In this document: piece by piece, positions 22,985-26,946 of the stretch
Position numbering within the stretch: the stretch's first letter is position 1
How the letters are laid out: each line of letters begins with the position of its first letter
Origin: a virus
Direction: 5' to 3' (one strand)
DNA: 32,923 bases
IMG/VR virus record: IMGVR_UViG_3300044712_001574
Coordinates: 1 to 32,923 of that record
Made by a program: the position numbers and the translations under genes
The notes under the pieces: generated by a model
The model's database searches: none
Told to the model about the DNA's origin: nothing
The model's input: the letters and a program-made list of their open reading frames with translations, nothing else

Positions 22985-23290
22985 TCAAGTAAACATAAAC
23001 CTCTCACTATCCTGCACAATTGTAGTAGTAAATGGAAACCCAGCCTCCGGCACCTGGAGAATGCTCTCTATAAGTCCCCTGGAGGAAGTAAAAATCACAT
23101 GCTTCTGGCCGTTAATGGAGATCTGCAGGTGCAGGCACTTGCCTGATCCACGTTCCTTAAACACCTTCGAATCCTCCACCTTGAAGTGATGCACCACAAT
23201 TTCACGGTTTAGGACCTTTGACATCTTGATCTTATCGCCTTCAAATCCCTTTGTACTGGACTTGATGTTAAACTGACTGAAACTATTCAT
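22985..23290 (-). CDS. Small OB-like protein coupled to the DGR reverse transcriptase (candidate accessory factor)
   Basis: 101 residues. The start at 23290 overlaps the RT stop by 8 bases, so the two are translationally coupled. A beta-rich pattern (KMSKVLNREIVVHHFKVEDSKVF..., KCLHLQISINGQKHVIFTSSRGLIESILQVP, FPFTTTIVQDSERFMFT) is suggestive of a small OB fold able to bind single-stranded nucleic acid. It is not the four-helix Avd protein of the Bordetella phage DGR, and no Avd gene is recognisable nearby. A role in template cDNA handling is inferred from position and fold pattern alone. Confidence 0.6.
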   Translation of the reverse strand: MNSFSQFNIKSSTKGFEGDKIKMSKVLNREIVVHHFKVEDSKVFKERGSGKCLHLQISINGQKHVIFTSSRGLIESILQVPEAGFPFTTTIVQDSERFMFT

Positions 23291-24236
23291 TCAGAAGCTT
23301 TTTTAATAAGTTTTTACTATTGCAATGTGAGGCCCAGCCGTTATATGAGGCAATGGATTGAAGATTGCTATTCTTCGCGATCATCCGGGCAAAATTTTGC
23401 TTAATTGATTTTCTGAGCCGTATATGGGAATGCCTGAAAACGTACCCAACGAAGTCGATTCCCCTGGCATCAACCGGGAATACCTGGTAGTTATCCTTTA
23501 CGGATAAATTAAGATTCTCGGCCAGATATGTACGGATCTCAAACAGGAGCTCGTGCAGGTACTGTTTATCACTGGAAAGGATCACCATGTCATCGGCATA
23601 CCTGAAGTAGTACTTCACTCCAATTTGTTCCTTTAGCCAATGGTCAAAATACGAGAGGTAAAAATTAGCCAGGTACTGGCTCAGGTAGTTTCCTATCGGA
23701 AGCCCATCGGTACTATCAATTATCTCATCGAGCAGCCAAAGCAGATCCAGGTCCTTAAACTTTCTTCTTAGCAGCTGCTTCAGAATGCCATGATCCACGG
23801 ATGGGTAGAACTTCTTTATATCGAGTTTCAGGCAGTACTGGGTGCCTGAAATATCTTTCAGTGCTGTCTTTACTGCATTTGCTGCAGCATGTATTCCCCT
23901 GCGTTTGATGCAGCTGTAGGTATCTGAAGTAAATGTTGCCACAAATATTGGCTCAAGGATGGTCATTACTGCATGGTGAGTGATCCGGTCGGGAAAGTAT
24001 GGGAGCCTGAAAATAAGCCGTTCCTTCGGCTCATATATCGTAAACGTGGTATATTCTGAGGTTCTATAAGTCTTCTTCTTCAGAAGCTCATGGAGTAGCT
24101 GAATGTTTGCATCCTTGTTTTGATCATGCAATAGGACTCCCGGCTGTTTCAGTTTGCCTTTGCGGGCAATTGAATCAGCCAGTTGTAGATTTTCTATGTT
24201 GTAGATCCGGTGGTACAAGTTGTTTATTCGTTTCAT
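23283..24236 (-). CDS. Diversity-generating retroelement reverse transcriptase
   Basis: 317 residues from the ATG at 24236; a TTG at 24275 in the same frame is less likely. RT motifs in order: fingers RLIFRLPYFPDRITHHAV (73-90), palm aspartate in LKLDIKKFYPSV (136-147), IGNYLSQ at 181-187, the DGR-type variant of motif 4 in place of the QG of retroviral or intron RTs, and catalytic YADD at 213-216. A thumb-like C-terminus contains RGIDFVGYVF. There is no maturase, endonuclease or ncRNA-type retron feature. It reverse-transcribes the template repeat RNA with adenine-specific errors. TR lies about 94 bases upstream on the same strand. Confidence 0.95.
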   Translation of the reverse strand: MKRINNLYHRIYNIENLQLADSIARKGKLKQPGVLLHDQNKDANIQLLHELLKKKTYRTSEYTTFTIYEPKERLIFRLPYFPDRITHHAVMTILEPIFVATFTSDTYSCIKRRGIHAAANAVKTALKDISGTQYCLKLDIKKFYPSVDHGILKQLLRRKFKDLDLLWLLDEIIDSTDGLPIGNYLSQYLANFYLSYFDHWLKEQIGVKYYFRYADDMVILSSDKQYLHELLFEIRTYLAENLNLSVKDNYQVFPVDARGIDFVGYVFRHSHIRLRKSIKQNFARMIAKNSNLQSIASYNGWASHCNSKNLLKKLLNE

Positions 24237-24332
24237 GCCTTTGCTTTTATAGGATCGCCTTCCCTGTGGTACCAACGCTCCCGAAAAAATGTTTGTTTTT
24301 TGCCATGTGGGCAGGGTTTACGCTATCAATTA

Positions 24333-24410
24333 GCTTAGGTGAGAGCTGACATTCGTATTCGTGTTCGTATAGTTGTAATTCGAATTCGAAAAACTGAACC
24401 TGGAAGACAG
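24333..24410 (-). repeat. DGR template repeat (TR)
   Basis: 78-base core read on the minus strand between target 1 and RT. In the target frame it reads mostly AAT/AAC, ACG and TAC/TAT codons (TCG AAT TCG AAT TAC AAC then repeated AAC/AAT-ACG), the adenine-rich design that lets AAY codons become many residues. Aligned without gaps to VR1 and VR2 it differs at 17 and 15 positions, all at TR adenines. The match to VR1 extends three more bases to 24413. Confidence 0.95.
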
Positions 24411-24443
24411 AACTGGCAGCATTCTAGCGTACAACCTAATTTT

Positions 24444-24851
24444 TTATTCAGAATAGATTAGCCATTCCTTGTATTCTGCCTCGAATTGAGAGGCTATATA
24501 CAGAGCCTTCTCTGAGGTATCAGTGCAAAGGCGAGAGCCGACAGTCGCAGCCGTGTGCGGATAGCGGTAAGCCGAATACGAAAAACCGAACCCGGAAGAC
24601 AGAACCCCAAACCATGGGTAGTACTTATACTGGGAGTAATTGTTCCAATCGGGTTTCCAGCCATCGTTTATGGCCTTAAAGATTACCATCAGTTTGAATC
24701 CGGCCACCAACGCTTTACGAAACTCTTCCGGAATACTGGATACCTCAGGCAGTGCTGAAGGATCGATACCTAATTTTTTGCAGGCATCTTCGAACGACTT
24801 GATTGTTTTGTAGTCGAATGCCGTTTTTGATTTTGCAGTTTTCTTTGCCAT
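24444..24851 (-). CDS. DGR target protein 1 (C-type-lectin-like variable protein)
   Basis: 135 residues. An N-terminal helical domain has IKSFEDACKKLGIDPSALP and LMVIFKAINDGWKPDWN, followed by YYPWFG, which introduces the variable region (83-109), and GSRLC, which ends it. SSGFGFS...VGSRLC is the usual frame of Bacteroidota DGR targets with a C-type-lectin fold. Diversified positions are about 92-103 (YSAYRYPHTAAT). There is no signal peptide and no fibre domain. It is a paralogue of the upstream target and lies closest to TR. It probably binds a host ligand on the virion or in the infected cell. Confidence 0.9.
   Translation of the reverse strand: MAKKTAKSKTAFDYKTIKSFEDACKKLGIDPSALPEVSSIPEEFRKALVAGFKLMVIFKAINDGWKPDWNNYSQYKYYPWFGVLSSGFGFSYSAYRYPHTAATVGSRLCTDTSEKALYIASQFEAEYKEWLIYSE
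24525..24602 (-). repeat. DGR variable repeat 1 (VR1)
   Basis: Gapless alignment with TR over 78 bases shows 17 differences, each at a TR adenine (changes to G, C and T). It encodes residues ~84-109 of target 1. Six of the differences, two at the 5' edge and four at the 3' edge, are shared with VR2; the central ones differ between the two VRs. Confidence 0.93.
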
Positions 24852-24855
24852 GTGA

Positions 24856-25335
24856 TTATTTGGTTAAGGTTAGTAAATCCTTGTACAGTTGTTCAAATTG
24901 TTTCCCGGCATAATTTGCCTTCTCTTCTGATTCAAAGCAAAGGCGAGAGCCGACAGACGTAGACGTGCGCGTATAGTGGTAATACGAACTCGAAAAACCG
25001 AACCCGGAAGACAGCTTAAACCAGGGGTACCACTTAGGCTGATCCGTGTCGGTCCAATTTGGAGTCCATCCCTGATTGATTGCCTGGGCAATTACCTTCA
25101 GTTTTTTGTAGGCAATTTCATCAACCGTGTCTAAATCACGGATAATGTCCTCCGGTTTTACCTGCATGGCCTCACAGGCATCCTCAAAGGATTTAATATC
25201 CTTAAAGGAAATGGGTTTGAATGCATTCTCTCCGAATTGATCAATAAGATCCTGCTTGAACCAATCCGGGGATTCGTTAAACAGCTTTTTCATTTTATCT
25301 CTCCGTAAAGAGATTCCGATTGTGTCTTTACTCAT
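24856..25335 (-). CDS. DGR target protein 2 (C-type-lectin-like variable protein)
   Basis: 159 residues. Same domain plan as target 1: IKSFEDACEAMQVKPEDI at about 47-64, VIAQAINQGWTPNW, KWYPWFKL, variable region 108-133 (SSGFGFSSSYYHYTRTSTSVGSRLC), then EEKANYAGKQFEQLYKDLL, which closes the lectin fold. It has about 25 extra N-terminal residues with an amphipathic helix (DKMKKLFNESPDWFKQDLIDQFG). Target 1 begins 4 bases after its stop, so the pair is co-expressed. No signal peptide. It is likely functionally redundant with, or a partner of, target 1. Confidence 0.9.
   Translation of the reverse strand: MSKDTIGISLRRDKMKKLFNESPDWFKQDLIDQFGENAFKPISFKDIKSFEDACEAMQVKPEDIIRDLDTVDEIAYKKLKVIAQAINQGWTPNWTDTDQPKWYPWFKLSSGFGFSSSYYHYTRTSTSVGSRLCFESEEKANYAGKQFEQLYKDLLTLTK
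24937..25014 (-). repeat. DGR variable repeat 2 (VR2)
   Basis: Gapless with TR over 78 bases: 15 differences, all at TR adenines. Central codons differ from VR1: AAT became AGT, TAT, TCT and TCT, and AAC became CAC and CGC. This shows independent mutagenic homing from the same TR. It encodes residues ~108-133 of target 2. Confidence 0.93.
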
Positions 25336-26277: not shown

Positions 26278-26946
26278 TTATTTAAGTTCAGGGTAATACC
26301 TCAAAATATTATCTTTATAATAAACCTTCTCATGCTTCACGGATAGCGCCCATTCCTTCTGCGGCACCAGCGGCTTGCTGCCTCCGGTCATTGCGCCAAC
26401 CACTACAAATTCCATCCCGGAGAAGTTTACCTGGTCGAAGCGGCTCATAAGCGGTTCCACGGATACCCATTTGCGGCCACGGAATTCACGTAGGTCTTTA
26501 ATCCTTTTGCCAAGGCTGGCTTTTTCTATGGAAGTTCCACAGATGCAGTTATCCGGGATCGCAATATCACACATCTGATCCACCAGGTTGAAGCATCCAG
26601 GATTCTTTGAGAGAAACAGAAAGGTATGGTTGGGATGGTCGTGAGCCACATCCATAATGTCATAAATCCATTCAGACTCAACCTCATTACTGAAAATATC
26701 ACACATACTCCCGACAAAGATCACCGGCTTATCAGGGCTTATAATCTGTGCAATTCGGTTCCGCTTCTTCGGCATTCCGGGGAACTTCTCTTTCAGTCTC
26801 TCCGGGTGAAATTCAGGCACGCTGAAATTCTTCTGCAGCTTATACCGGTCTGAAAACTTCCGGGCATAGCAGAACGGGCAGCCAAAAGAACAGCCGGTGA
26901 TGGGGTTCCAGGTGAAGTCACAGAATTCAATGGTGGATCGGTTCAT
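26278..26946 (-). CDS. DUF5131 / phage Gp37-Gp68 family radical-SAM-like protein
   Basis: 222 residues beginning MNRSTIEFCDFTWNPITGCSFGCPFCYARKFSDRY. The C19-x3-C23-x2-C26 arrangement is the radical-SAM iron-sulfur motif, embedded in the WNPITGCxxGCxxCYA signature of DUF5131. IFVGSMCDIFSNEVESEWIYDIMDVA and GRKWVSVEPLMSRFDQ are also conserved in this family. These proteins are frequent in phages, but their substrate is not known. It starts just before the 98-residue gene's stop (ATGA) and ends one base before the membrane protein gene. Confidence 0.88.
   Translation of the reverse strand: MNRSTIEFCDFTWNPITGCSFGCPFCYARKFSDRYKLQKNFSVPEFHPERLKEKFPGMPKKRNRIAQIISPDKPVIFVGSMCDIFSNEVESEWIYDIMDVAHDHPNHTFLFLSKNPGCFNLVDQMCDIAIPDNCICGTSIEKASLGKRIKDLREFRGRKWVSVEPLMSRFDQVNFSGMEFVVVGAMTGGSKPLVPQKEWALSVKHEKVYYKDNILRYYPELK

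Follow-up and report, generated by a model that had tools for sequence, protein, structure and literature searches.

A diversity-generating retroelement of a temperate phage without a recognised Avd, with two small target genes and a predicted OB-fold protein encoded beside its reverse transcriptase

Avd is described as essential for retrohoming and is present in most known diversity-generating retroelements (DGRs) (PMC10053308), so the question arises how DGRs without Avd work. Avd is usual rather than universal, HRDC and MSL being known alternatives (PMC10053308). This question applies to a cassette in the IMG/VR record IMGVR_UViG_3300044712_001574, a stretch of 32,923 bases called the window here. 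The genes of this record include an integrase, a terminase large subunit, a portal, a head protease and a major head protein, which identify it as a temperate tailed phage. Closely related cassettes were found in Prolixibacteraceae MAGs, and the host is therefore likely a member of the Bacteroidota. The initial annotation had described a complete DGR in which one template serves two tandem paralogous targets. The template repeat (TR), both variable repeats (VRs) and the reverse transcriptase (RT) gene lie on the minus strand, as follows.

24856..25335, minus strand: target gene 2 (159 aa, distal), carrying VR2; open reading frame with a match to phrog_11581
24937..25014, minus strand: VR2, which departs from TR at 15 positions, each a TR adenine, and ends ~25 codons before the stop; from repeat comparison
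24937..24951, minus strand: IMH-like 3' end of VR2, GGCTCTCGCCTTTGC; from family conservation, putative function
24444..24851, minus strand: target gene 1 (135 aa, proximal), a paralogue of target 2, carrying VR1; from open reading frame and paralogy
24525..24602, minus strand: VR1, which departs from TR at 17 positions, each a TR adenine; from repeat comparison
24525..24539, minus strand: IMH-like 3' end of VR1, GGCTCTCGCCTTTGC; from family conservation, putative function
24333..24410, minus strand: TR, with 23 adenines (17 in the core, 6 in fixed flanks); from repeat comparison
24333..24347, minus strand: IMH*-like 3' end of TR, AGCTCTCACCTAAGC (family consensus AGYTCNCACCTATGC); from family conservation, putative function
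24240..24332, minus strand: structured TR-RT spacer RNA with covarying helices; Rfam RT-17 match at 24240-24318, 33.1 bits (gathering 40.4)
23283..24239, minus strand: DGR-type RT of 318 aa when read from its likely ATG; the open frame reaches back to 24275
22985..23290, minus strand: accessory ORF, 101 aa, which overlaps the stop of the RT gene; matches phrog_19665 and is predicted to adopt an OB fold

A DUF5131 (radical-SAM-like) ORF also lies near the cassette (window 26278-26946), and weak relatives of it were seen near the cassette in loci L019, L020, L035, L068 and L162.

We compared the repeats without gaps. The single 78-nt TR and the two VRs were confirmed, and the TR is single-copy in the record. 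As had been claimed, every difference falls on a TR adenine: 17/17 in VR1 (A>G 8, A>C 6, A>T 3) and 15/15 in VR2 (A>G 6, A>T 5, A>C 4). Given the 23 TR adenines, the hypergeometric probability that all differences fall on A by chance is 1.6e-12 for VR1 and 1.1e-10 for VR2. Both VRs lie inside protein-coding target genes, which are paralogous and encode 135 and 159 aa. A search of IMG/VR with the RT gave a family of 80 relatives at 69-81% identity. Scanning for repeat pairs with an A bias then turned up a TR and VRs in 75 loci, the window among them. Two VRs were present in 65 of these loci, three in 4 and one in 6, and in four of the six one-VR loci the TR lies near the contig start. The two-target layout is a family trait, in support of the arrangement initially proposed; two targets per template have already been described (PMC10743442, PMC8143477). 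Over 148 TR-VR pairs from the 75 loci, 2158 of 2183 mismatches were at TR adenines and 25 elsewhere, a count that leans towards the adenine pattern because the scan penalises non-A mismatches. The pattern recurs at matching positions in nearly every locus, which is beyond what the scan scoring produces. The cassette is a genuine DGR, well within the known kind.

Six of the 23 TR adenines (window 24401, 24395, 24347, 24340, 24336 and 24335) lie in flanks where the VRs of relatives are near-fixed for another base. This was quantified in 28 loci with equal-length TRs, comprising 55 distinct VRs. The VR base was G at positions 12 (35/35), 18 (43/45), 66 (52/53) and 73 (55/55), and T at positions 77 (49/49) and 78 (8/8); the non-A base is thus fixed at 98-100% for most sites, and in 43/45 at one. 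At the 17 central adenines the bases varied among the VRs of the same set. The near-fixed other base opposite the six flank adenines indicates that diversification spans the 17 core adenines, of which 11 are changed in VR1 and 9 in VR2; the raw counts of 17 and 15 overstate it.

The 3' ends of the repeats are distinct across the family, with a near-fixed CGCCTTTGC in the VR and CACCTATGC in the TR. Position 77 is silent (Leu CTN), yet it is T in all VRs, even opposite a TR C. The Leu codon is CTT in 123/125 VRs and CTA in 55/60 TRs of the family, and the Arg codon in the VR 3' end is CGC in 122/125. At the silent third positions 68 and 71, VR equals TR in 55/55 VRs. Since sites 68 and 71 track the TR and site 77 is always T in the VRs, the simplest reading of these alignments is that copying stops somewhere from 71 to 77, with CGCCTTTGC serving as the IMH and CACCTATGC as the IMH*. 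The glycines at VR positions 12, 18 and 66 may be held by selection, and one VR (of L009) retains A at position 66, which fits a site within the copied tract. No consensus stem-loop was found after the VR in 64 T1 and 59 T2 sequences; a hairpin downstream of the VR is not strictly required (PMC12875486). The description of the DGR as complete should be qualified, as neither Avd nor a conserved post-VR hairpin was found. It also left out two conserved parts, the 101-aa accessory ORF and the structured spacer RNA.

The target proteins of the family are small, with medians of 136 and 155 aa and a range of 122-180 aa. Their VR ends ~25 codons before the stop, and the usual position of a VR is the target C-terminus (PMC8144416). 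The model of target 2 (pLDDT 85.5, falling to 60-70 in the VR) combines helices with a beta hairpin at the VR, followed by a C-terminal pair of helices. A C-type lectin was not among the fold matches reported for this model with its low-pLDDT VR. Profile comparison with the LMMB, vir525 and Mtd targets, made for a C-type lectin, gave no significant match, and Pfam gave no credible match for 55 targets. The VR-end motif GSRLC resembles GSRLAF and GGRACA of other DGR targets, which leaves room for a reduced C-type lectin. The same likeness would suit tail or receptor-binding proteins, which are the usual targets of viral DGRs (PMC8144416) and may be the targets here as in most phage DGRs. Several observations point the other way. 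The targets are short and match no tail family, and the cassette sits with the terminase on one side and the portal on the other. Ten large neighbour genes in relatives had matches to primase-like, head, methyltransferase or unknown families, none of them tail. The LoVEphage homologue of the targets (L203:5992-6576) lies apart from the tail gene and the RT, among non-structural genes. We consider a tail or receptor-binding function a real possibility at somewhat below even odds; it bears on what is diversified and would leave the mechanism unaffected.

The RT carries both motifs named in the initial annotation, YADD and IGNYLSQ. Among PDB sequences, its best phmmer match was 8ub7-8ube, named 'Reverse transcriptase' (1.1e-42, 149 bits), which leads the best other RT (64 bits) by about 86 bits. 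We take these chains to be the BPP-1 bRT. In an RT phylogeny, a check proposed earlier, the window RT groups with DGR RTs and apart from QG..SP-motif RTs. In the maximum-likelihood tree it falls in a 20-row clade (98/89) with the RTs of crAss, Perkons, LBR48, Arawn, hankyphage, vir525 and ANMV-1; long branches (hankyphage, Bacuni F2) make the exact placement of those RTs unsure. The open frame of the window RT begins at TTG 24275. The frame upstream has stops in most relatives, which makes ATG 24239 the probable start. The cr52_1 RT (L082:4016-5041) has several in-frame stops, read through under table 11. Stop recoding is known in crAss-like phages, and these stops are in keeping with it.

We searched for Avd with the profile NF033474. 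There was no match in the cassette, elsewhere in the window phage genome or in 34 of the 35 other family records. The single Avd-bearing record is that of the L050 phage, in which a second, separate RT lies beside the Avd. This DGR-like RT with its own Avd (L216:369-1978) shares its contig with the OB-type DGR, so that one phage holds two DGR types. The profile scored above its cut-off in BPP-1, BalMu-1, VP58.5, FP_Lagaffe and YPCBV-1 and below it in Bacuni F2. It found no Avd in ANMV-1, hankyphage, vir525, LMMB, LBR48, Arawn, LoVEphage, cr52 or Perkons, although the hankyphage paper labels an Avd (PMC12135933). In the tree, the 20-row clade takes in every placed Avd-less RT, and every RT with an adjacent Avd falls outside it.

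The accessory ORF (22985-23290) overlaps the end of the RT gene by 8 nt. An ORF of this kind directly follows the RT in 79 of the 80 relatives, and in the exception, L013, the contig ends 13 nt past the RT. The other neighbouring window genes tested were mostly without a match near the RT of relatives. When the search was seeded with the OB gene, an RT lay within 60 nt in 77 of 79 loci and the remaining two were cut there by the contig end; this set overlaps the RT-seeded set of 80 relatives. In a separate draw of 395 Bacteroidota genomes the OB profile had 6 matches, each close to a DGR-like RT, in one case at ~0.6 kb. The OB gene without a DGR-like RT was seen at contig ends only, and in no element examined did the OB gene and Avd occur together at a single RT. 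Homologues directly follow the RT in the archaeal viruses ANMV-1 (profile E 2e-21) and vir525 (5e-24). The domain is fused to the hankyphage RT as a C-terminal domain (residues 327-422, E 1e-11) and to the fragmented RT of LoVEphage (E 3e-8). The latter RT (L214:2390-3933) is spread over more than one frame, its last piece ending in the OB-like domain, and may be a broken or frameshifted gene. A Prolixibacteraceae contig (L172:3498-5436) carries a further RT and OB gene ~40 kb from the first, with ~0.6 kb between the RT and the OB ORF and its own TR/VR with 19 A-only differences.

The 101-aa protein had no match in NCBIfam or Pfam, and its profile had none among PDB sequences. An AlphaFold2 model (pLDDT 89) shows the order beta-beta-beta-alpha-beta-beta, which fits an OB fold (a five-strand barrel with a helix between strands 3 and 4). 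Many OB domains were among the VIA-align neighbours listed (RuvBL2 external domain, HIN, PriB, POT1, Teb1), at individually weak Z scores of 4 to 6.4, and the best Foldseek match was weak (E 0.2). The protein does not fit the Avd family, having no match to NF033474 and a model that is mainly beta as opposed to a helical bundle. On this model the protein is predicted to adopt an OB fold and to bind nucleic acid. Its linkage to the RT, its fusion to RTs and its predicted fold together suggest that it probably works with the RT in place of Avd. PMC10053308 cites an accessory without a Pfam family from Wu et al. 2018, and the OB ORF may already be mentioned in that work. A literature search on OB folds and DGRs, whose reach did not extend to Wu et al. 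2018, found nothing relevant.

Alternatively, the DGR could be an ordinary one and the 101-aa ORF a phage gene that hitchhikes beside it without a role in retrohoming, the RT and RNA acting alone or with a host factor. The RTs of LBR48, Arawn, Perkons and cr52 fit such an account, being of the same clade and without a recognisable OB gene or Avd. The OB gene was likewise not recognised in LMMB. The LMMB RT (L206:3506-3796) has a C-terminal extension of ~95 aa that appears OB-like by eye, and the profile comparison for an OB domain in it was negative. A mere passenger would sit poorly with the retention of the OB gene beside the RT in every relative long enough, where other neighbours are mostly not kept, with its place beside the RT in archaeal-virus DGRs and its fusion to the RT in two Bacteroides phage lineages, and with its occurrence apart from a DGR-like RT at contig ends only. 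We regard the passenger account as unlikely.

The structure of the TR-RT spacer was tested on 51 sequences against shuffles and slid controls. Paired cells made up 95.9% in the spacer, compared to 82.9% in shuffles and 34-49% when slid. Changes on both sides of a pair were found in 88 cells, compared to 19 in shuffles and 5-17 when slid, and the covariation score was 0.475 versus 0.212. One three-pair helix is invariant and hence uninformative for covariation. The Rfam family RT-17 (RF03020) matched the window spacer over its full length at 33.1 bits, below the gathering score of 40.4. The L026 spacer scored 40.7, just above it, and none of the 14 further family loci tested did so. The window spacer RNA appears related to RT-17. 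The BPP-1 spacer folds and recruits bRT-Avd (PMC12875486), and by analogy the window spacer may have a similar role.

Near-identical relatives bear on whether the family is active. The contigs of L003, L006 and L007 are 99.7-99.96% identical and come from separate metagenome records. The pairs L003/L007 and L006/L007 are 99.7-99.8% identical overall and showed 12 VR differences, all at TR adenines, compared with 1 difference outside the VRs, over 4356 and 5660 bases. L005 and L007 differed in the VRs at 21 TR adenines and 2 other positions, and at 2 positions outside the VRs. Several further near-identical contig pairs had no VR change. Because near-identical contigs differ almost solely in their VRs, the family appears active now or recently, which supports recent retrohoming in relatives rather than in the window phage itself. 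That the cassette is instead a decayed DGR whose repeats are relics of past diversification would suit the unchanged contig pairs and the single genome of the window phage examined, but is very improbable given the intact RT with YADD and motif 4, the conservation of TR, VRs and spacer across the family, and these adenine-restricted differences.

Collectively, these results point to a DGR of a temperate Bacteroidota phage, working as set out here, a reading to which we assign a probability of about 0.85. A single transcript would span the two targets (2, then 1), the TR, the spacer, the RT gene and the OB gene, and would supply a template RNA comprising the TR and the folded spacer. This spacer would be recognised by the RT, which most likely forms a complex with the OB-fold protein in place of Avd. 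The cDNA would be primed near the TR 3' end, and the RT would misincorporate opposite adenines. The mutated cDNA would then replace the matching segment in either target gene, with the IMH-like CGCCTTTGC setting the 3' edge and staying distinct from the CACCTATGC of the TR.

The DGR of Bordetella phage BPP-1 (bRT-Avd, Mtd) shares with the window the RT family, the adenine-specific TR/VR differences, distinct 3' ends of VR and TR that are IMH/IMH*-like in the window, and a structured TR-RT spacer (PMC12875486). The window differs in having an OB-fold ORF downstream of the RT and no Avd, two small targets with internal VRs, and no conserved post-VR hairpin. The DGRs of ANMV-1 and Methanosarcinales virus vir525 share the RT clade, the homologous small ORF after the RT and the lack of an NF033474 Avd. 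They differ in their one target, annotated adtA or tail protein, and in their archaeal hosts, as given in the records. The Bacteroides hankyphage p00 DGR, which has been shown to be active (PMC12135933), shares the accessory domain and, on a long branch, the RT clade. Its domain is fused to the RT C-terminus, in contrast to the window, and its one target is a tail fibre (PMC12135933) with the VR near the C-terminus. The RTs of the Crassvirales DGRs (cr52_1, LMMB) are among the closest annotated ones (49-58% identity), with IGNYLSQ and no Avd, whereas their target is a tail or tail-collar protein and the OB gene was not recognised.

What is unusual here is an Avd-less lineage with an OB-like partner and paired small targets with internal VRs. 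We tentatively suggest, at a little short of even odds, that Bacteroidota phages and archaeal viruses share an Avd-less DGR lineage in which an OB-fold single-strand nucleic-acid binder, free or fused to the RT, replaces Avd, and that the sub-family of the window diversifies sets of two or three small proteins other than tail fibres. The candidate partner is small, consistently linked and also fused to the RT of the active hankyphage DGR, which makes the question of how Avd-less DGRs work testable. If it works with the RT, it would be an alternative component with which to engineer targeted diversification. Should the targets not be tail proteins, they would point to phages using DGRs beyond host-receptor switching.
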